DNA from: Deltaproteobacteria bacterium
Lineage (GTDB): Bacteria; Desulfobacterota; DSM-4660; Desulfatiglandales; HGW-15
Direction: 5' to 3'
Assembly: GCA_016932235.1 (NCBI GenBank)
Contig: JAFGDF010000168.1
Span: forward strand, 1 to 8,108
DNA: 8,108 bases
Every line of letters starts with the position of its first letter. The stretch's first letter is position 1. Under the pieces are notes generated by a model. It saw nothing but the letters and a program-made list of their open reading frames with translations, was not told the DNA's origin and ran no database searches. This document shows, one piece after another, positions 1 to 8,108 of this stretch. The position numbers were made by a program, and so were the translations under genes.

Positions 1-70
1 TGGCACTTTTTATTAAGAAAACAGTGATGGAAAACGGTAATAAAAGGATTCTAAAGAGTTTTTTAAACAT
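1..70 (-). CDS. Possible 5' end of a membrane or secreted protein running off the left edge
   Basis: On the minus strand an ATG at 70-68 opens a frame that stays open to the window edge (23 codons). The peptide begins MFKKLFRILLLPF and continues with a hydrophobic run ending in FLIKSA. A short basic start followed by a hydrophobic core is what a signal peptide or signal anchor looks like. The upstream DNA (about 71-230) is very AT-rich, which would suit a promoter region. Against it, no convincing Shine-Dalgarno sequence precedes the ATG and only 23 residues are visible. A competing plus-strand frame from position 3 to the TAA at 93-95 could instead be the tail of a gene entering from the left. 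No function can be assigned. Confidence 0.3.
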   Translation of the reverse strand, partial: MFKKLFRILLLPFSITVFLIKSA

Positions 71-230
71 GATAACGAGATTAGGTTGGATATAATTACA
101 GGAGATTATTATAAAATGTCCGGATATTTTCCTTTATTAATGAAATATGTTTGATATAATACAACGATAATGTTTAATAGTGGGATATAGATGACAATTG
201 ATTGAAAGAATTGAAATGTTCATCCAGAAA
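71..230. other. AT-rich non-coding segment, possible promoter region
   Basis: This stretch is markedly richer in A and T than the rest of the window and holds no long ORF. It contains TATAAT-like hexamers at 91-96 and 155-160 on the plus strand, but neither has a good -35 box at the right distance. It could hold the promoter of a leftward gene beginning near position 70, or of the distant rightward gene at 728. A 12-codon ORF starting at 115 has an AGGAGA-like sequence ahead of it, but it is too short to support as a gene. Confidence 0.3.
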
Positions 231-234
231 TCAT

Positions 235-439
235 CCCCCTCCCCCTGCCCCTCCCACCAGGGGGGCTGAAGACAGAGCTAACCTTGATGAACGACTCCAC
301 TGCCCCATTCCGCAAGGGGAGGGGTGGAAAATGGATAAATTGTGGTTTAACGGTGTGACCCAACCCCTCCCGCAAAGGGAGATGTGGCTGGGCAGAGCAA
401 ATGTTTCGAAGTTACTGAATAATCCCTCCCATAAGGAGG
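235..439. repeat. Cluster of four degenerate C-rich/G-rich hairpin repeats
   Basis: Four related units occur at about 235-265, 303-324, 364-383 and 424-439. Each has a C-rich arm such as CCCCTCCC, a short A-containing loop (CGCAA, GCAAA or CATAA) and a G-rich arm such as GGGGAGGGG. The third pairs CTCCC with GGGAG (367-371/377-381). The fourth pairs CCTCC with GGAGG (425-429/435-439). A better-preserved copy lies at 1324-1358, downstream of the next gene. Similar C-rich/G-rich intergenic repeats are common in deltaproteobacterial genomes. The clustering suggests an array or repeated insertion. ORFs crossing this stretch are proline/arginine-rich artefacts of the repeats. Confidence 0.65.
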
Positions 440-461
440 CTGTGTTGTATTTAAGAAGAAG

Positions 462-545
462 GTCATTCCGGACCCCCGTCTCCACGAGGGCAGGCTGTAA
501 GCAGCGAAATAAGCCTGCCCCTACATGTCTGAAGCCGGGGGAATC
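462..545 (+). repeat. GTCATTC/GAATC-ended hairpin repeat, copy A
   Basis: The unit begins with GTCATTC (462-468) and ends with GAATC (541-545). An outer stem pairs CCCCCG (473-478) with CGGGGG (536-541). An inner 9-bp perfect stem pairs GGGCAGGCT (488-496) with AGCCTGCCC (512-520) around a 15-nt loop. It shares its end sequences with copies B, C and D, but the core differs. The design (ATTCC...GGAAT ends around a self-complementary core) resembles dispersed repeats such as neisserial dRS3. Shared origin with dRS3 is not implied. Confidence 0.6.
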
Positions 546-568
546 AAGGATTACAAAATAAATTCAAA

Positions 569-662
569 GGATTCTGTATCCCGGCTCGCCCTTATGAATA
601 GGTTCCCACTGGGAAATTCAACAGGGCGAGCGACCGGCGTCGCTGGTCTTGGCCGGGATGAC
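569..662 (-). repeat. GTCAT(T/C)C/GAATCC-ended hairpin repeat, copy B, inverted relative to A
   Basis: Read on the minus strand, this unit starts GTCATCCCGGCC and ends GAATCC, matching the ends of copy A. An outer stem pairs ATCCCGGC (578-585) with GCCGGGAT (652-659). Inside it, GCTCGCCCT (584-592) pairs with AGGGCGAGC (623-631), and AGCGAC (629-634) pairs with GTCGCT (639-644). The inner pairings overlap slightly, so they are partly alternative folds. The whole 95-bp stretch is strongly self-complementary. It lies 66 bp upstream of the M15 peptidase gene. Confidence 0.55.
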
Positions 663-727
663 GAATTGCGGCGCAGTCTCAAGGCGAGGGGATTGCTTAC
701 AGGGCGGCATTACAGGGAGGGAATAAG

Positions 728-1288
728 ATGGCATCGAGAAGGCTTGAGGATCTTGTTGAAGAGATGCGTGAAAAGGCCGAGGATATTCAAAAGAGTTGTA
801 TGGAAAAAGGGGGATTTGACCTGCTCATCTACTGCACCCTACGCTCCCCGGAGGAACAGGCACGGCTTTACAGGCAATCACGCTCACGGCAGGAGATCGA
901 CCGGAAGATTAAGACACTGCACAGCCGCGGATTCGATTTTCTTGGCCAGGTCCTGGAAGATGTGGGACCCTGCCACGGCCCAAAGGTGACCAATGCAGGG
1001 CCTGGGGAGTCCTGGCATAATTACGGCCGGGCATTTGACGCGGTACCTCTCGTGGGGGGTAAACCGGCCTGGGATTATCGGAAATCCCGGTCCCTTTGGG
1101 ACACCTATGGCGAGGTAGTCCGGCAGGCAGGGTTATACTGGGCCGGAGACTGGACCCGTTTCCGGGAGTATCCCCATGCACAGCTAATGTCAGGTAATAA
1201 CCCCCTGAAAGAGATGCCGGCTGATCAGGTTTACGTTGCCCTTCTTGGGGGTGAAAGGGCTATTAGCGATGATATTGCATTTGTCTGA
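728..1288 (+). CDS. M15-family peptidoglycan peptidase (endolysin / CwlK-like)
   Basis: The 186-residue product has the hallmarks of LAS/M15 zinc peptidases of the phage-endolysin and CwlK type, which cut the L-Ala-D-Glu or related peptide bond in peptidoglycan stems. RS.EEQARLY at residues 39-48 is the usual N-terminal family motif. SWHNYGRAFD (95-104) gives zinc ligands His97 and Asp104. EYPH (147-150) gives the catalytic acid Glu147 and the third ligand His150. No signal peptide or cell-wall anchor is visible, so export would need a holin-type route or lysis. The ATG at 728 is supported by AGGGAGG at 714-720, 7 nt upstream. The gene stands alone between repeat clusters, with no phage structural gene nearby. 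It may be a domesticated lysin or the remnant of a mobile element. The family call is firm; bond specificity and role are inferred. Confidence 0.88.
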   Translation: MASRRLEDLVEEMREKAEDIQKSCMEKGGFDLLIYCTLRSPEEQARLYRQSRSRQEIDRKIKTLHSRGFDFLGQVLEDVGPCHGPKVTNAGPGESWHNYGRAFDAVPLVGGKPAWDYRKSRSLWDTYGEVVRQAGLYWAGDWTRFREYPHAQLMSGNNPLKEMPADQVYVALLGGERAISDDIAFV

Positions 1289-1323
1289 GGAATGGCTTAT
1301 TTATTATTTCCAATAGATGATTC

Positions 1324-1358
1324 CCCCTCCCCTCTGTCCCCTCCCACAAGGGGAGGGG
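1324..1358. repeat. C-rich/G-rich hairpin repeat, best-preserved copy
   Basis: CCCCTCCC (1338-1345) pairs perfectly with GGGAGGGG (1351-1358) around the loop ACAAG. It is preceded by another C-rich run from 1324. It belongs to the same family as the four degenerate copies at 235-439, so the family lies on both sides of the M15 gene. It is 36 bp after that gene's stop codon and could act as a terminator-like hairpin, although no T-tract follows. Confidence 0.65.
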
Positions 1359-1425
1359 AATATCACGCCTGTCTAAAATCGTTTTTTCTTTGGACAGCAT
1401 TTGCTGCATCTTAAGTGAATGCTGT

Positions 1426-1453
1426 GGATTCTTCGATCAAGTCGAAGAATGAC
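1426..1453 (-). repeat. GTCATTC/GAATCC-ended hairpin repeat, copy C
   Basis: GGATTC at the left and GAATGAC at the right are the same termini as copies A and D, read on the minus strand. ATTCTTCGA (1428-1436) pairs perfectly with TCGAAGAAT (1442-1450) around a 5-nt loop. The unit is a compact 28-bp version with no nested insert. Confidence 0.65.
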
Positions 1454-1496
1454 AAAAAAATCTAAACCATGAGGCCGTCTGTAAGGTCATTCTAAG

Positions 1497-1525
1497 GTCA
1501 TTCTGTGGCTTTGACCACAGAATCC
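1497..1525 (+). repeat. GTCATTC/GAATCC-ended hairpin repeat, copy D
   Basis: The unit begins GTCATTC (1497-1503) and ends GAATCC (1520-1525). ATTCTGTGG (1500-1508) pairs perfectly with CCACAGAAT (1515-1523) around the loop CTTTGA. Its termini match copy C, but its core stem has a different sequence that keeps full pairing. Just upstream, the 11-mer AAGGTCATTCT occurs twice in tandem (1483-1504), so the left end of this element is duplicated. Confidence 0.65.
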
Positions 1526-1696
1526 ATTTTGCCTATCGCCTTGCATATTTTGTTCGGCCCATTTGCGCTGGGACAACCTGAAGTTTTGAACGAAAGAGGC
1601 ATTGTGTAAAATCAAATACTTATCTGCCTAACTAACCGAGATTAAATTTATTTTGGACAGCAATGGGGGAATATATGGATAAAGAAAGGCTTCTGA

Positions 1697-2920
1697 TCAG
1701 TCCCTGGAGGTTGGTACCGATGCCCTGTAGATGGTGCCGGTTCCCCTGATCCTGTATCGCCCCACTGACGCGGGGACAAACAGGACATTGCCCCTGTGGA
1801 AAGGCAGGATGTCGCCACTGCCCCTGTCTTCCACACTGGAGCTCCCTTCAAGACATATCATGATCGCTGCGCTTTTCGTTTCAGGGCTTACATAAATGGA
1901 TTCTTTATGGGTAAGTCTTATGACGGAGAGCATAAATTCTTCCGCTATGACAGGATATAGGGATTCCATGGAATCCATGTCCTCAGGGAAGAGCACTTCC
2001 GGATCACGGGGACTGAAGTCCAGTATGCCCAAAAGTTCCTCCATGTCAATATGCTTGGAGGTCAGCCCTCCCCTTAAGACATTATCCGAGTTGGCCATCA
2101 GCTCAAGGCCGGCGCCTTCAAGGTAGGCATGGAGCTCTCCGGCCGGAATGAAAAGGGCCTCTGCAGGCTGAAGTCTGATCAGGTTGAGAAAGAGGGGCGA
2201 GAGACTCCCCATATCACGGGGATACTCCTGTTCGAGCCTCCTTACCCATTGAAAGGGCGGATCTGAAATCCCCCTTTTATCTATACGGGATATGACATTT
2301 TTTAGAAGAGGGCCTGAAACGTCCTTTTCAACGGTCATGAGGGATTGAAAAAATGCCTTCAGACCTTCACTATCCGGATGGTCGACCAAATGGGTTATCC
2401 CCGGGGTCTCTGCCGATTGTCCGGCCTTTTCCATTAACCGGATTATATCTTCAATCCTGCGAAAGCCCTTCAGTATCCACATGGGCTCCAGGGCGCAGAT
2501 GAGTTCGGGTTTATGGTTTTCATCCCGGTAATTCCGGTTTGACGCATCAAGGGGTATCTTTTTCCGATTTTCCTCTTCAAAGCCCTTTCTTGCCTGCTCC
2601 CTATCGGGATGGGCCTGGATCGAGAGGGGCCTGGAGGCGGCAAGGAGTTTGAATAGAAAGGGCAGTTTATTATGGAAACGGCTTGCGACGGACGGCCCAA
2701 GGATCTCAACAGGGTTCTGATCAATAAGTTCCAGAAGGGAACGAGACTCATTGCCATTGTATAAAAGGGAGGGTGCTTTTGGGTGGGACCCCATCCACAT
2801 CTCCGCGTAAGGGCTTTCTGCCGGAGACTTTTCTCCAAGGAGTTCAGGAATAAAAGTCCTTGATCCCCAGGTGTATTTCTGAATGCTGTTTTGTAGTTTT
2901 ACGATCCTTTTCATTGCCAT
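1697..2920 (-). CDS. manA: Mannose-6-phosphate isomerase, class I
   Basis: The 407-residue product interconverts fructose-6-phosphate and mannose-6-phosphate in the cytoplasm, feeding GDP-mannose and surface polysaccharide synthesis or mannose use. All class I (cupin) landmarks are present. YTWG is at 16-19. SIQAHPD (100-106) supplies zinc ligands Gln102 and His104. HKPELICAL (136-144) supplies Glu139. GELHAYL (261-267) supplies His264, followed by the signature MANSDNVLRGGLTSKH (275-290). Length is normal for the family, with an intact C-terminal cupin half. The start could be the ATG at 2920 or the ATG six bases further in; neither has a strong Shine-Dalgarno sequence. The gene is divergent from the cNMP/PilZ gene at 3002, with 81 bp between them, and appears monocistronic. 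Confidence 0.95.
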   Translation of the reverse strand: MAMKRIVKLQNSIQKYTWGSRTFIPELLGEKSPAESPYAEMWMGSHPKAPSLLYNGNESRSLLELIDQNPVEILGPSVASRFHNKLPFLFKLLAASRPLSIQAHPDREQARKGFEEENRKKIPLDASNRNYRDENHKPELICALEPMWILKGFRRIEDIIRLMEKAGQSAETPGITHLVDHPDSEGLKAFFQSLMTVEKDVSGPLLKNVISRIDKRGISDPPFQWVRRLEQEYPRDMGSLSPLFLNLIRLQPAEALFIPAGELHAYLEGAGLELMANSDNVLRGGLTSKHIDMEELLGILDFSPRDPEVLFPEDMDSMESLYPVIAEEFMLSVIRLTHKESIYVSPETKSAAIMICLEGSSSVEDRGSGDILPFHRGNVLFVPASVGRYRIRGTGTIYRASVPTSRD

Positions 2921-3001
2921 ACCGCACTGAATGCTTTACAATATATTTTTTTTGAAAAATATGCTATTATTTTTGTATCAAAGAGACAGGGAGGCCCTTA
3001 G
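2921..3001. promoter_or_regulatory. Divergent intergenic region, likely promoters for manA and the cNMP/PilZ gene
   Basis: This 81-bp, very AT-rich gap separates two genes that start away from each other, so promoters for both probably lie here. On the plus strand TTTACA (2935-2940) and TATGCT (2960-2965) are 19 bp apart, and TTGAAA (2952-2957) is 17 bp before a GTATCA hexamer (2975-2980). Either is a plausible but weak sigma-70 arrangement. AGGGAGG at 2988-2994 is the ribosome binding site for the plus-strand gene. No clear operator palindrome was seen. Confidence 0.4.
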
Positions 3002-3691
3002 ATGTTTACCCCCATATCAGAAGAGACCTATACAGACGGACAGGTTATTTTTAACGAGCAGAGTCCCGGAGACTGGGTGTATATAGTTCTTTCAGGGAGC
3101 GTGGAGATATCAAAATCAATCGGGGATCAAAAGTTTGTAATAGACACGCTCAAGGAAGGAGAGGTCTTCGGCGAATTGAGTTTTTTAGGAGGAATAAAGC
3201 GTACAGCCACGGTAACGGCGGTCGGTGATACAACCGTGGGGATAATTGACCGCAACATCCTGGATGAGGAATTCAACAGGCTTTCCTCTGATTTCAGGGC
3301 CGTTCTTGTGGCGGTTGTAAAAAGGTTTAAGATCCTGACAGACCGGCTGTCCGATGCATCAGGCAGGAAAGAGCCAAGAATACAGAAGACCCTGTCCCTG
3401 TCCTATAAGGATAGGCAGAGCTTTTTAAAGGCATTTTCGGGCGACATCAGCAACGGAGGTCTTTTTATCAAGACTGCCGGCCCTCTTCCGCGGGGGGAAA
3501 AATTCCTGCTCAAGCTTCAGCTTCCGGATATTCCGGAGCATCTGGATATAAATTGTACGGTCGCATGGGAAAAAAAGGAGGCGGGCGGCGAGGATAAACG
3601 TCCACAGGGTATGGGCGTTAAATTCATGGAGATGAGCGGAAAGGATAGGGAGATCCTCGGGAGATACCTGAAATCCATTAGCTCAAAATAA
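3002..3691 (+). CDS. Cyclic-nucleotide-binding domain protein fused to a PilZ-like domain
   Basis: The 229-residue cytoplasmic protein joins two nucleotide-sensing folds. Residues about 5-115 form a CRP/cNMP-binding domain; the phosphate-binding cassette FGELSFLGGIKRTATV (56-71) keeps Gly57, Glu58 and Arg67. Residues about 124-226 look like the PilZ subfamily common in deltaproteobacteria (TIGR02266-like), with DISNGGLFIKT (148-158) giving the DxSxxG c-di-GMP motif. The N-terminal RxxxR motif is not intact: Arg126 is followed by Lys130 where the second Arg would be. No helix-turn-helix is visible, so it is probably not a transcription factor. It may act as a protein-level switch, perhaps in motility or surface behaviour. 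The start at 3002 is supported by AGGGAGG 7 nt upstream. Domain calls are firm; ligands are inferred. Confidence 0.88.
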   Translation: MFTPISEETYTDGQVIFNEQSPGDWVYIVLSGSVEISKSIGDQKFVIDTLKEGEVFGELSFLGGIKRTATVTAVGDTTVGIIDRNILDEEFNRLSSDFRAVLVAVVKRFKILTDRLSDASGRKEPRIQKTLSLSYKDRQSFLKAFSGDISNGGLFIKTAGPLPRGEKFLLKLQLPDIPEHLDINCTVAWEKKEAGGEDKRPQGMGVKFMEMSGKDREILGRYLKSISSK

Positions 3692-3904
3692 CCTGCGGGT
3701 AATTAATATGAGTCTTCTCACAATTAGTCAGGAGAAAGTGGTTTAGGATTCAAGGGTTAAAGTGGTCAAGTGTTTCTTTTCTAACAATTTTATCAAACCT
3801 TTAATTCTTTGTAATTTTTGAGCATTTCACTCGAATCCTTGAATCCTGAGCCCCTTGAACCCTTCCCATCGATCAGTTAGCTTAGAGATGGTCCATTAAT
3901 ATAT
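3692..3904. repeat. Convergent intergenic spacer with 11-bp inverted repeat
   Basis: The spacer lies between two genes that end towards each other. AGGATTCAAGG (3745-3755) is exactly inverted as CCTTGAATCCT (3837-3847), about 80 bp apart. Nearby variants of the same word (CAAGGGTT at 3751-3758, and CTTGAACCCTT further right) suggest a larger degenerate inverted repeat built on TTCAAGG. It may be a dispersed repeat or a bidirectional transcription stop, but there is no compact hairpin followed by a T-tract. No gene is supported in it. Confidence 0.5.
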
Positions 3905-5242
3905 CTATTTCCTATAAACCCCGTATTCCTTTACAGATTCCATCATAACTTTTATATTTTCCAGGTTTGCGTTGTCGGCCGTAGCGCCCGGCGCCATGAT
4001 ATAACCGCCGTCCTTTCCGGCTGTTTCAATAAGCTTACGGCAGTATTCCCTGACCTCATCCCTTGTGCCTGTTACGAGTAAAGATGCCGGAATATTACCC
4101 ATGATACAGGCCCTGCCGCCAAGGATCTCCTTTGCCCTTGCCATATCGGTATGGTCAAAATGCCATACCACCTTACCTTTTGGAAGTTCACTGATTATCT
4201 CCAGCCGGCTGTTGTATCCCCCCTCTGCAAAGAGCCTTGGCACAAGTCCTTCCTCCACAATGCCCAATATGACCCTCTTAAGGTATGGCCAGTAGAACGT
4301 GTTAAACTGAGCTTCGGACATGAAACCGTCGGCCCCCCTGTGGAGAGGGATAAAGATTATCGGGACACCGGTCCTTTCCGCCCCTGCCACGGCGGCCCTT
4401 ATGACGGCGGGTATCATCTCCTCCATATATTCAAAAAGTTTGTCCGGTTGGCGGAACATATCCATGACCGTGCCTTTTGTTCCTCTTAATGAGGCCCCGA
4501 TACGGTCGAGGGGAGAGATGGCCCCGGCAGTGCCACCGTAAAAGATCGGCAGACCCGATGCCAGTCCTTCCCGGTCCAGTTGGGAGATTACTCCTCTCCA
4601 TTTCTTCTCTTCCTCACCGGCCTCGAAAAACGCCCTGAAAACCGCCTGAATCTCAGGATCTGCAAAGGCCGCGAATCCTCCACCGGGTGCGGCTCCTATG
4701 GCGGTCAGGGGAGGGAGCTTTTTTAAGGCCTCCGCCACCCCACAGATCCTCGGCAGGTAGGTCCTGAAATGAAAGTCAGCAGGGTCCTTCCGAATGATAT
4801 CCCACTCATCGGCCCTGACGTATTCGCCTTCAAGGTATTGGGCGGCAAGGTCATCCGACAAGCCGTGGCCGGGCCATTTGTACATCCTGGAGTTGATGAT
4901 ATCGAGGACCCTGCCGCACCTGATAACACCGGCGCTGGGAAGAATATCGAGCTCAAAATCATCAATATATTTCTTCCATGCCTTGACGACCTTGTTTATA
5001 TCATACATTACATCCCTGACCGTGTAACCTGAATAGCGGGCCGGCGTATGTCCCGGGTTTGCGGCCAGAGGGACCCTGTCCGGTTCCCTGAGCTTTATCG
5101 CGTCTATAAGCCGGTTGACCCTTTCTTTGTAAAGTCTTTCCGCCTCAGGGCTTATAAATTCTATATTGTCAGGTGAGAGCCATTGCTTGAATCTTTCCGC
5201 CTGTTTTTCATCAGGAGATAATCCAGCCCATTTGTTTTCCAT
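3905..5242 (-). CDS. Uroporphyrinogen decarboxylase superfamily protein (UroD/MtaA-like)
   Basis: The 445-residue product belongs to the UroD superfamily, which includes true HemE and the corrinoid methyltransferases MtaA and CmuA. Support comes mainly from the C-terminal half: HRGADGFMSEAQFNTFYWPY (301-320), WHFDHTD (360-366), CIMGNIPASLL (379-389), then GGYIMAPGA (412-420) and an ENIKVMMESVKEYG-type end. The canonical HemE N-terminal motif (RxPxWxMRQAGR) is absent and the N-terminus is about 50 residues longer, so it is unlikely to be housekeeping HemE. Such paralogues are numerous in anaerobes and often act on methylated or corrinoid substrates; the substrate here is unknown. AGGAGA (5251-5256) precedes the ATG by 8 nt. 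It is the last gene of the minus-strand cluster, 33 nt after the small membrane protein gene. Confidence 0.85.
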   Translation of the reverse strand: MENKWAGLSPDEKQAERFKQWLSPDNIEFISPEAERLYKERVNRLIDAIKLREPDRVPLAANPGHTPARYSGYTVRDVMYDINKVVKAWKKYIDDFELDILPSAGVIRCGRVLDIINSRMYKWPGHGLSDDLAAQYLEGEYVRADEWDIIRKDPADFHFRTYLPRICGVAEALKKLPPLTAIGAAPGGGFAAFADPEIQAVFRAFFEAGEEEKKWRGVISQLDREGLASGLPIFYGGTAGAISPLDRIGASLRGTKGTVMDMFRQPDKLFEYMEEMIPAVIRAAVAGAERTGVPIIFIPLHRGADGFMSEAQFNTFYWPYLKRVILGIVEEGLVPRLFAEGGYNSRLEIISELPKGKVVWHFDHTDMARAKEILGGRACIMGNIPASLLVTGTRDEVREYCRKLIETAGKDGGYIMAPGATADNANLENIKVMMESVKEYGVYRK

Positions 5243-5275
5243 ATATAAGTTCTCCTATCTAATATTTAATCATTC

Positions 5276-5680
5276 CTATTCCCACCGGTCCTTTCCGGTC
5301 TTTCTCATCTCAATAGAACGAAACCTTCCGACCCTGCCCTGATCGCTGATAAATGAACTCAGGAGCCAGCTCACAAGGCTGATCAGGAGGGAACCCGCGA
5401 CCGCTGACCAGAAATCCCTTACCACAAGACCGGAGATAATGCCCGAGACCATCAGAAGCAGTACCCCATTTATTATAAAGGTAAAGAGACCCAGAGTAAG
5501 GATATTCAAAGGAAGGGTCAGTATTATCAGGACCGGGCGGAAAAAGGCGTTTAATATTCCCAGGAATGCCGCGGCAATGAGGGCGCTGCCGAAGCCCGTG
5601 ATCCGGATCCCCTCCAGGAGATAGGCGGTCAGCATGATTGCCGCAGTGAGAACCAGCCAGCGTATTATAACTCCCTTCAT
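5276..5680 (-). CDS. Small membrane protein, PF04020 (phage holin 4 superfamily / YvlD-like)
   Basis: The 134-residue protein is almost entirely hydrophobic up to residue 111, with about four transmembrane segments (roughly 5-23, 30-53, 57-83 and 90-111) and a short basic tail. The block LGILNAFFRPVLIILTLPLN (40-59) followed by ILTLGLFTFIINGVLLL is the recognisable signature of this family. Members are called holin-like by similarity, but in most bacteria they are chromosomal membrane proteins of unknown role, and nothing here shows lysis function. The start is well fixed: AAGGAGG (5688-5694) lies 7 nt ahead of the ATG. The ATG overlaps the TGA of the upstream hydrolase gene as ATGA (5680-5677), so translation is probably coupled. 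Confidence 0.85.
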   Translation of the reverse strand: MKGVIIRWLVLTAAIMLTAYLLEGIRITGFGSALIAAAFLGILNAFFRPVLIILTLPLNILTLGLFTFIINGVLLLMVSGIISGLVVRDFWSAVAGSLLISLVSWLLSSFISDQGRVGRFRSIEMRKTGKDRWE

Positions 5681-6465
5681 AATAAATCCTCCTTGGGAAA
5701 TCCTTTTATAAACCTTTTTGCAGCCTGATTAAACCCGTCTGCATCGTGGATATTAACGGCATGACCCCCGTCCAGGAGCAGGAGTTCCAGCCCGGGAATA
5801 GTCTTTTCAGCGACCCTGATAAGAGGGACGAATGATTTTTCGAATCGTCCCGCGATCAGCAATGTAGGCACTCTTGTCGCCGGGAGCAGGGGCAGGATGC
5901 CCGATTTCGTTATAGTATACAGTGAAGTATCCCTGAACCCTTCAATCGTTACCTTCTTTACATCATCCAAAAGCGCTTTCCTGATCTCCTCCGGCAGATT
6001 ACGGCCTTTTGAAGGGTGAAAGGGAAACTCATCAATCACTTTTCGGCCCTGTTCTTTGATGCGCCGGATGAGCATGTCCGGATCTCTGTCCGAGCGGACA
6101 TCAGACAGGCCTGAATGGGAGTTGGTAAAGATCTGTCCTGCAATGTGTTCAGGGTGATCAAGGGCGTAACGGAGCGTAAGGGATGCCCCCAGTGACTGAC
6201 CGCATATAAACCATTTTTTAACATCAAGCTCTTTCCGGATCTTCTCAAATTCCAGGACATAATTCTCAGGAGTATAATCCCTGGGATTTTCAGGGGACGA
6301 AGACCGGCCATGCCCGAAAAGCTCGATTATGACCGGACGGCAAAAATTTTTCAGGGCATCCAGGTTGTGAATCCACTGGGCGCGGCTTGACAGCATACCG
6401 TGAACCAGGAGGAGAAAGGGGCCCTGTTCCCCGTGAACTTCATAGTACAGCGCCGTCTTTTCCAT
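5677..6465 (-). CDS. Alpha/beta hydrolase
   Basis: The 262-residue cytoplasmic protein has a full alpha/beta-hydrolase layout. VHGM (21-24) forms the oxyanion-hole region. ELFGHGRSS (48-56) is the usual post-strand motif. GQSLG (89-93) is the nucleophile elbow with Ser91. The C-terminal GGHAVN (233-238) carries the catalytic His235. The usual acid position after strand 7 reads AGRFEKSF (205-212), so Glu209 may stand in for the common Asp. The substrate cannot be predicted; esterase, lipase or C-C hydrolase activity are all possible. The ATG at 6465 follows the zincin gene stop after 2 nt, with AAAGAG as a modest ribosome binding site inside the upstream gene's end. Tight packing indicates one operon. 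Confidence 0.9.
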   Translation of the reverse strand: MEKTALYYEVHGEQGPFLLLVHGMLSSRAQWIHNLDALKNFCRPVIIELFGHGRSSSPENPRDYTPENYVLEFEKIRKELDVKKWFICGQSLGASLTLRYALDHPEHIAGQIFTNSHSGLSDVRSDRDPDMLIRRIKEQGRKVIDEFPFHPSKGRNLPEEIRKALLDDVKKVTIEGFRDTSLYTITKSGILPLLPATRVPTLLIAGRFEKSFVPLIRVAEKTIPGLELLLLDGGHAVNIHDADGFNQAAKRFIKGFPKEDLL

Positions 6466-6467
6466 TT

Positions 6468-7511
6468 TTAAATCTCTTTCGTTAAAAGGGTAATACCCTT
6501 CATCTTTAATGCCTCCCTGATATCCTTTAAGGCATTTTTAGTCAGGCAGAATTCCACAAAATCCTCTGACAGGTCTAATGCAAGGCCTATTTGGGAAATA
6601 AGGGTTAACTCCTTTCCGGTCTCAAACTCGATCCGGTTTTTATGATATTGAAACAGTTCATCCCTTGTGATTTCCACCCCGTCCTTTGCTTCCTGCGGCC
6701 TTACCCTGTTAAGGTATTCAATGCCATGCCCCGCCTTCAGCAGATATCGATAAAAGGCGGAATGCCCGGTTTCCGACAGGCCCTGCTGTAAATAAAAGTT
6801 CAGCAACTCCTCCAGGGTTGCCGTGGATAAAGCAGTGACGTCCATGGGCCTGCCCCTCATAAACAGATCGATATTTCTGGCAAAATGTTCCTCCAGGTCA
6901 TTTTTTCTCGGGGTCAGTGTCGTGTTCAGGGGGTCTTCGATGAATTGTCCTGAAAAGCCCCCGATTAATCCGGCATAACTCTTGTGGGCATCCGGGATCA
7001 GATCGTCGGGAAGCAACGCCCGGGAGGTATTCCCATCCCGGAAAGAATTCATGAGGGCTGACTTTTTTTCATTTTCATCCTCCCTGGTAAGCCATGCGTA
7101 CCATACATGGTGACCGATCTCGTGGATAAAGTCCTGTGCTCCCTTTATGCTTATGATTGAATTGACGGGATTATAATAACTGCCTGTTCCATCATTATAC
7201 TCAATATTTACCTTATCGCTTAAGAGGCGTTTTAATATGGAGTCGGGCATGAGTTCAGCGGTCATTTTCGCTTCGACCCATAATTTCGGATAGGAGCTGT
7301 GCCGGGGCGCGGTCACATCCGTTTGCTCCGAGATAAGGGCAACCACGAGAATCTGCCTGTGTGGATTTTTCCTCCTGTATTCATCGGCAAGGTGATACAG
7401 GGGAGAAGGTTTATCCGAACGGATCATGGTGTAGTCATGGAGTGATTCACCTTTTACAGCCATAAAAAGCCGGTCGACCGTCCGGTTGCTATCCGTTTTT
7501 GATTGCATCAT
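6468..7511 (-). CDS. Uncharacterised HExxH zincin-like protein
   Basis: I do not recognise a named family for this 347-residue protein. It carries a clear zinc-metallopeptidase motif HEIGHH (129-134 region: His130, Glu131, His134). About 75 residues later comes EEHFARNIDLF (207-217), where Glu207 or Glu208 is a likely third zinc ligand, as in gluzincins with an E-x-F-A helix. This pattern resembles the ATLF-like (lethal-factor-like) and related peptidase domains, but the rest of the sequence does not settle the family. There is no signal peptide or membrane segment, so it should act in the cytoplasm. The C-terminal third is helical and charged. The start overlaps the end of the DUF166 gene by 23 nt, with AAGGCG ahead of two adjacent ATGs (7511 and 7508), so translation is likely coupled. 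Peptidase activity is inferred. Confidence 0.75.
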   Translation of the reverse strand: MMQSKTDSNRTVDRLFMAVKGESLHDYTMIRSDKPSPLYHLADEYRRKNPHRQILVVALISEQTDVTAPRHSSYPKLWVEAKMTAELMPDSILKRLLSDKVNIEYNDGTGSYYNPVNSIISIKGAQDFIHEIGHHVWYAWLTREDENEKKSALMNSFRDGNTSRALLPDDLIPDAHKSYAGLIGGFSGQFIEDPLNTTLTPRKNDLEEHFARNIDLFMRGRPMDVTALSTATLEELLNFYLQQGLSETGHSAFYRYLLKAGHGIEYLNRVRPQEAKDGVEITRDELFQYHKNRIEFETGKELTLISQIGLALDLSEDFVEFCLTKNALKDIREALKMKGITLLTKEI

Positions 7512-8108
7512 TAATCGCCTTTTTTAAGGCCTGGTTATGGATCCTTCCTGCGATATGGACAGGGCTTTTCTGATAGATCGGGTCCCAGTCAGCAGGATCA
7601 GCCGTGCAGAAAAACTGTGTTTCCAGTCCTATCCTCTCAACAGCTTTTTCCAGGTTTAATCCGCATATCTTCTCGGCAGCATCCCAGGTCGCGCCGCATG
7701 GAGCGCCCCTGGACACCCGGATTTTTTTCACCACGCCCTTATCGATTTCCAGTACAAATTCAGGCGCACCAAAAAACTCTCCATATCTTCCCAGCACAAA
7801 CTGTCTGGAAAGGGCGCATCATGTTGGAGGAGTTATGGCGCTTTCAACATCGATCTTCTTCCCCGATGCCACAAGAGGCACCTTCTGATTCTCACAAAGG
7901 AGAGCAAGCTCATGGGATATATCCGGATGGACAAGGAAATCAATGACCAGGTCCGCATGGATCTTTTCAGGAAGATAGATTCCTGGATAATCTATCACAG
8001 GTGGAAGGTTGTCTTCAACTGATATTATATCCAATCGGAACATATCCCTTCCATATTTTTTTATTCCAGCAATCTTGCTCTCACCCCGGCCCTTCTGCTG
8101 AAAAACCA
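7489..8108 (-). CDS. DUF166/COG1810 family protein, probable selenoprotein with in-frame TGA (5' end outside window)
   Basis: Conventional reading gives two ORFs, 8043-7819 and 7797-7489, but they share one frame and are separated only by a TGA at 7821-7819. The frame is also open upstream of 8043 to the window edge, so the visible part is 205 residues including the TGA residue. Sequence on both sides fits the DUF166 family: IDYPGIYLPE and a hydrophobic HADLVIDFLVHPD stretch before it; YGEFFGAPEF, RGAPCGATW (133-141) and HIAGRIHN (184-191) after it. At the junction TPPT-TGA-C-ALS implies Sec96-Cys97. The TGA is followed by a SECIS-like hairpin. Pfam lists this family (PF02593) with an uncertain thymidylate-synthase link; the true role is unknown. 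Other cysteines are Cys137, Cys148 and Cys167. A nonsense mutation in a pseudogene is the main alternative. The gene leads the visible operon. Confidence 0.82.
7787..7821 (-). promoter_or_regulatory. Candidate bacterial SECIS element with UGA selenocysteine codon
   Basis: In the mRNA sense the UGA (7821-7819) is followed by UGCGCC and then an 8-bp stem. CUUUCCAG (7812-7805) pairs with CUGGGAAG (7794-7787), with one G-U pair. The 10-nt loop ACAGUUUGUG can close further by ACA-UGU pairing, leaving a GUU apical loop and one unpaired G. The apical G lies 18 nt after the UGA. Bacterial SECIS elements, such as that of E. coli fdhF, sit directly after the UGA with a G near the loop start at about this distance. 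The hairpin is inside the coding sequence, as expected for bacteria. Fold and spacing are seen directly; SelB binding is inferred. Confidence 0.75.

Follow-up and report, generated by a model that had tools for sequence, protein, structure and literature searches.

DUF166 (Pfam PF02593, COG1810) is a protein family that is already on record as containing selenoproteins. DUF166 (pfam02593) is listed among the selenoproteins in a 2022 review, which refers to Zhang and Gladyshev 2007 for a symbiont of Olavius algarvensis (PMC9312934), and a 2026 review lists the NCBIfam model NF041372 with the same citation (PMC13188914). In their passages on DUF166, the tables of the two reviews give neither a selenocysteine (Sec) motif nor a role (PMC9312934, PMC13188914). 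NF041372 bears the name 'DUF166 family (seleno)protein DfsP', which some database relatives also carry. Here, we describe the member of this family encoded at the end of an 8,108-nucleotide stretch of DNA from a deltaproteobacterium (GenBank assembly GCA_016932235.1, contig JAFGDF010000168.1, positions 1 to 8,108 of the forward strand), referred to in the following as the window. Its gene, dfsP, contains an in-frame TGA codon that most likely encodes selenocysteine, and we are highly confident that its product is one continuous DUF166-family selenoprotein.

The window protein matches NF041372 with 308.9 bits over residues 1–198 (curated cut-off 200 bits), agrees with this family over its whole visible length and in the Sec/Cys column, and differs from it in nothing of substance; the closest database protein that we found is 63% identical. 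The original prediction, which was made from the window sequence alone, had suggested a possibly new or little-described selenoprotein family. This part of it has to be given up: NCBIfam names DfsP, two reviews list DUF166, and the DfsP of the window is not new. What the selenoprotein call contributes is a corrected annotation for a single gene of an already recorded family, and the useful part of the analysis is a lead on function.

The dfsP reading frame continues across a TGA codon

The dfsP gene occupies positions 7489..8106 of the minus strand, with 205 codons visible; its true N-terminus and start lie beyond base 8108, outside the window. Read from 8106 to 7489, the visible frame contains a single in-frame TGA, at codon 96 (7819..7821, minus strand), no frameshift, and a TAG stop at 7491..7489. 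Standard open reading frame (ORF) calling splits the gene at this TGA into two minus-strand ORFs of one frame: an upstream ORF, which is closed by the TGA at 7819 and extends past the end of the window, and a downstream ORF of 102 amino acids with a GTG start (7489..7797). Both halves match PF02593 (gathering cut-off 24.4 bits), with 49.6 bits for the upstream and 94.0 bits for the downstream ORF, and the read-through protein scores 151.1 bits. As there is DUF166 homology on both sides of the TGA, the continuity of the frame is not a matter of chance. By eye, no Shine-Dalgarno-like run is visible upstream of the GTG. The TGA is preceded by a TPPT motif and directly followed by a TGC codon for Cys97 (7816..7818, minus strand). 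The structural claims of the original prediction are thus borne out, namely two ORFs in the same frame with one TGA and no frameshift between them, two peptides that fit one DUF166 protein, a GTG start lacking a Shine-Dalgarno sequence, and a TGA beside TPPT that is directly followed by a Cys codon.

TGA and cysteine codons alternate at the same position

For a comparison at the DNA level, we read this codon in 45 DfsP genes, which comprise the window gene, the loci L001, L002, L017 and L033, and 40 fetched regions. They draw on an NF041372 search of a phylum sample of 297 Desulfobacterota genomes, with a match in 61 genomes, above the cut-off in 40; two of the 45 places that exceeded 150 bits in this search were left out of the gene set. 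The codon is TGA in 20 of the 45 genes and a Cys codon in the other 25, with no third state. Thus, TGA recurs at the same codon in 19 loci besides the window, whose proteins are 48 to 60% identical to that of the window. Two of the relatives are named organisms, Desulfobacterales bacterium GWB2_56_26 and Desulfobulbaceae bacterium BRH_c16a (53 to 55% identity, TGA at the same codon). Since the nearest named relatives belong to the Thermodesulfobacteriota (Desulfobacterota), the owner of the window gene is probably an anaerobe of this kind. On a tree of 44 DfsP genes, the distribution of Sec and Cys requires five changes, at least three of which are forced by well-supported branches, and one genome (G134) carries both a Sec-type and a Cys-type copy.

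The TGA lies a single base from the Cys codons TGC and TGT, and Cys genes exist in the family (25/45), as would be expected if an ordinary Cys-encoding DUF166 gene had acquired a nonsense mutation or been misread in sequencing, or if the TGA were a true stop. Yet the recurrence of TGA at the exact codon in 19 other loci, a visible frame free of any other in-frame stop or frameshift, and a hairpin that is found in the TGA genes but not in the Cys genes (see below) make this explanation very improbable.

A SECIS-like hairpin follows the TGA codon across the TGA genes

Just 3' of the TGA and inside the reading frame lies a candidate hairpin (7787..7812, minus strand) that resembles a selenocysteine insertion sequence (SECIS). 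In the register shared by the family, the two strands of the helix lie 13 to 18 and 25 to 30 nucleotides after the T of the TGA, which corresponds to 7808..7803 with 7796..7791 in the window. The pair cells of this register are formed to 84.2% in the 20 TGA genes, against 35% at the same place in the 25 Cys genes, and two pairs are changed on both sides among the TGA genes. The covariation score of 0.168 (shuffled mean 0.058) and the percentage paired were each attained by none of 500 shuffles, in a control that ignores relatedness. Of the same 500 shuffles, 139 equalled or exceeded the observed count of pairs with changes on both sides, and 38 that of further pair types. One slid register also attains 78% paired. 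The usual loop in the TGA genes is xGGUCx, which resembles the SECIS loop of Escherichia coli fdhF.

In the window itself, this element is poorly represented. The hairpin there forms four of the six register pairs, has the loop AGUUUG, and its fold is not significant by itself (z -1.06; 36 of 200 shuffles were as good). No bacterial SECIS was matched when the window was scanned against Rfam; the three matches obtained had E-values of 0.32 to 0.48 and scored far below gathering, and two ordinary DUF166 loci had none that reached the gathering score. On the reading proposed here, ribosomes together with SelB and tRNA-Sec would be guided by the hairpin just 3' of the codon to read UGA as selenocysteine, and the product would be an uninterrupted protein in which Sec96 is directly followed by Cys97.

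Parts of the machinery for this decoding are found in the genomes of both named relatives. SelB (TIGR00475) scores above the cut-off in each of them. One (G002) has a tRNA-Sec (RF01852, 72 bits) that ARAGORN also calls as tRNA-SeC with the anticodon TCA; in the other (G001), the RF01852 match lies in a gene truncated at the end of its contig and scores 49.2 bits (gathering score 47); ARAGORN makes no call there, but a loop with the anticodon TCA is recognizable by eye. A second place above the RF01852 cut-off in G002 was rejected, as ARAGORN identifies it as tRNA-Trp; the model matches ordinary tRNAs, too. More broadly, SelB exceeds the cut-off in 43 of the 44 genomes with a DfsP match above 150 bits, the single exception being a Cys genome, and every one of the 19 sampled genomes with a TGA-type gene has selB. 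We had expected this co-occurrence to discriminate Sec genomes, but it did not: 263 of the 297 genomes have selB, and its presence therefore agrees with selenocysteine and hardly adds weight. Seven of the 44 DfsP genomes (G164, G213, G189, G134, G163, G103 and G031) have two selB genes above the cut-off; in one of these genomes, the second copy passes it only with the adjoining fragments of its frame counted in.

These data also bear on the possibility that UGA encodes an amino acid other than Sec, for instance Trp through a change of the genetic code. Among 181 listed database proteins, the column holds Cys in 174 and Trp in seven, in rows where Sec may be printed as Cys and Trp may merely reflect a TGA called under another translation table. 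None of the 45 genes read from DNA encodes Trp at this column, TGA terminates two other window genes in the ordinary way, those of ManA (1699..1697) and an alpha/beta hydrolase (5679..5677), and the two named relatives possess SelB and tRNA-Sec, be it whole or cut. We consider a code change still less probable than a stop or an error. The central claim of the original prediction, that dfsP encodes a selenoprotein, is accordingly supported by the exclusive alternation of TGA and Cys, the two named relatives with TGA, the hairpin, and the selB and tRNA-Sec genes of relatives.

Conserved residues and the wider DUF166 family

Several residues around the Sec96-Cys97 pair are invariant in DfsP. Cys97 is present in all 45 genes, as are three candidate metal ligands: Cys137 in a CG motif (7696..7698), Cys167 (7606..7608) and His184 (7555..7557; all on the minus strand). 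His60 and His190 are invariant as well (45/45). Ordinary DUF166 proteins, of which we aligned 116, share Cys97 and Cys137-Gly138 without exception and His184 in 111 cases. At the column of Cys167, they have Pro in 115 of 116 sequences, and a PCxA motif is found in 103; for this reason, their equivalent of Cys167 probably sits one place further on.

At the Sec column itself, ordinary DUF166 proteins differ from DfsP in having Phe (111/116) or Leu (5/116). The original prediction had proposed to check whether homologs have Cys or TGA here, which holds within the DfsP subfamily (45/45) and fails in the wider family. Judged from the alignments, Sec or Cys at this column is limited to the DfsP subfamily. 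Ordinary members further differ by a longer middle part, while their predicted fold has a similar two-part organization. Three database proteins (P0239, P0240 and P0242) are annotated with both DUF166 and PF01257 in a single chain of 375 to 391 residues, and one of the three is named NADH-quinone oxidoreductase subunit E. In a table of PMC1852104, the COG1810 entry is the gene MMP0976.

A predicted Rossmann-like and a possible IscU-like half

The AlphaFold2 model of DfsP has a predicted local distance difference test (pLDDT) score of 95.4. In structure searches, its N-terminal half is Rossmann-like, and IscU chains occupy the top nine rows in both Foldseek and VIA-align. For a model of an ordinary DUF166 protein, no IscU chain is among the 50 Foldseek rows listed, where Rossmann dehydrogenases come first, and IscU is found by VIA-align alone (ranks 39 and 44). 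In a profile comparison with IscU, the C-terminal half of DfsP scores 26.2, against 17.8 for the highest of 20 column shuffles and 14.6 for the reversed profile.

Two points leave a relationship with IscU in doubt: the fold match is borderline, and the correspondence of residues between DfsP and IscU is unstable between alignments. The profile alignments reach only the middle one of the IscU cysteines, which one of them pairs with Cys137 and another places in a shifted position, and Cys residues at the places of the first and third were judged absent by eye only. Because the pairing of the cysteines differs between alignments, we do not claim homology between IscU and the C-terminal half of DfsP. 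The Pfam family of the IscU/NifU_N scaffold (PF01592) does not match DfsP at E-values up to 10, and DfsP differs from this scaffold by its additional Rossmann-like half and its Sec-Cys pair. A sequence search for solved structures gave one chance match only (E 0.26).

Genomic context and a lead on function

The genomic surroundings of ordinary DUF166 genes connect them with carbon monoxide dehydrogenase/acetyl-CoA synthase (CODH/ACS), the genes of which they adjoin in 8 of 16 loci. In four of these, the order is cdhA - DUF166 - cdhB - cdhC; in four, a CooC-like ATPase gene directly adjoins DUF166, with CdhD- and CdhE-like genes nearby. 'CooC-like' is our own label, and in the one locus for which NCBIfam names were obtained, the ATPase matches only ParA/MinD-type models. 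The remaining eight loci have no CODH/ACS-type neighbours within the fetched stretch. DfsP differs in this respect, with CODH/ACS neighbours in none of the 43 stretches examined. On the genome level, CdhC (E at or below 1e-40) is present in 40 of 44 DfsP genomes, 16 of 17 ordinary-DUF166 genomes and 129 of 236 others, or, for DfsP against all others, in 40 of 44 against 145 of 253, in counts that ignore relatedness.

We found no operon partner of dfsP: apart from DfsP, the most widespread protein cluster within 8 kb, which by eye resembles a response regulator, occurs in eight of the 43 loci. In G134, the Cys-type dfsP (L056; contig 1, 1451000-1470500) lies between two HdrA2-family genes, in a stretch that also holds an IscA/HesB-type protein of the IscA_HesB_Se family, a gene of the OS_HP2 (seleno)protein family and a second SelB. 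Together, the CODH/ACS neighbours, the CdhC association and this HdrA2 locus point to the assembly or care of metal centres.

Combining these observations, we tentatively propose a reading that we regard as possible and no stronger: DfsP, with its Rossmann-like N-terminal and IscU-like C-terminal half, may use Sec96/Cys97, Cys137, Cys167 and His184 as a thiol/selenol metal site, and may serve anaerobic redox enzymes by holding, inserting or repairing a metal or Fe-S centre. The Sec96-Cys97 pair could either be a strong ligand of the metal or keep the metal site open by acting as a reductant, and ordinary DUF166 proteins may care for the metal or Fe-S centres of CODH/ACS likewise. A plain redox enzyme or reductase is about as likely; it would have no part in metal-cluster assembly, and its Sec-Cys pair would carry out thiol/selenol chemistry on a substrate held by the Rossmann-like half. 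Such an enzyme would fit the nature of the N-terminal half, the vicinal arrangement of Sec and Cys, the HdrA2-family genes on both sides of the Cys copy in G134, and the view that most prokaryotic selenoproteins act in redox reactions (PMC9312934). A set of metal ligands is better suited to the conservation of Cys97, Cys137 and a His in relatives that lack Cys or Sec at column 96, and the IscU-like half likewise speaks against the plain redox enzyme, which we consider a serious possibility, albeit short of probable.

A more far-reaching version of the metal-centre proposal is doubtful. In it, the DUF166 proteins as a whole would be unrecognized metal-cluster assembly or transfer factors with IscU-like and Rossmann-like domains, serving CODH/ACS in ordinary members, and DfsP would be a selenocysteine-armed scaffold branch in which Cys or Sec replaced the Phe before the ligand Cys. 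The CODH/ACS link of the non-seleno cousins and the IscU-like half amount to a testable guess on how anaerobes build or protect nickel-iron-sulfur enzymes. Finally, some databases label DUF166 proteins as thymidylate synthases, and a few homologs have this name at their source. No such family was matched by DfsP at E-values up to 10 in Pfam and up to 0.001 in NCBIfam, and the label looks like a carried-over annotation; of all explanations discussed here, we give this one the least credence.

Neighbouring genes in the window

The next gene on the minus strand (6468..7511) encodes a protein of 347 amino acids with no Pfam or NCBIfam match. It overlaps the end of dfsP by 23 bases, for which reason the two genes are probably co-expressed. 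A tblastn search (E up to 1e-8) of the remaining 42 DfsP regions and of 16 ordinary DUF166 regions gave no match to this protein; by eye, its HEIGH stretch resembles a zinc-peptidase motif. The region 6468-8108 has no match on plasmids.

Also near dfsP, the window encodes a protein with cyclic nucleotide monophosphate (cNMP)-binding and PilZ domains (3002-3691, plus strand). It is 44% identical to a protein encoded in L055 (5231-5938, plus strand), upstream of the Sec-type dfsP of G134; a search of the remaining 41 DfsP regions and of 16 ordinary DUF166 regions gave no match. The minus strand, which carries dfsP, also has a gene for a URO-D family protein (3905-5242), which distantly resembles the corrinoid methyltransferases MtaA and CmuA. 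Another minus-strand gene (5276-5680) encodes a membrane protein of the Phage_holin_4_2 family (PF04020, 110.8 bits), and its first four bases coincide with the last four of the alpha/beta hydrolase gene.
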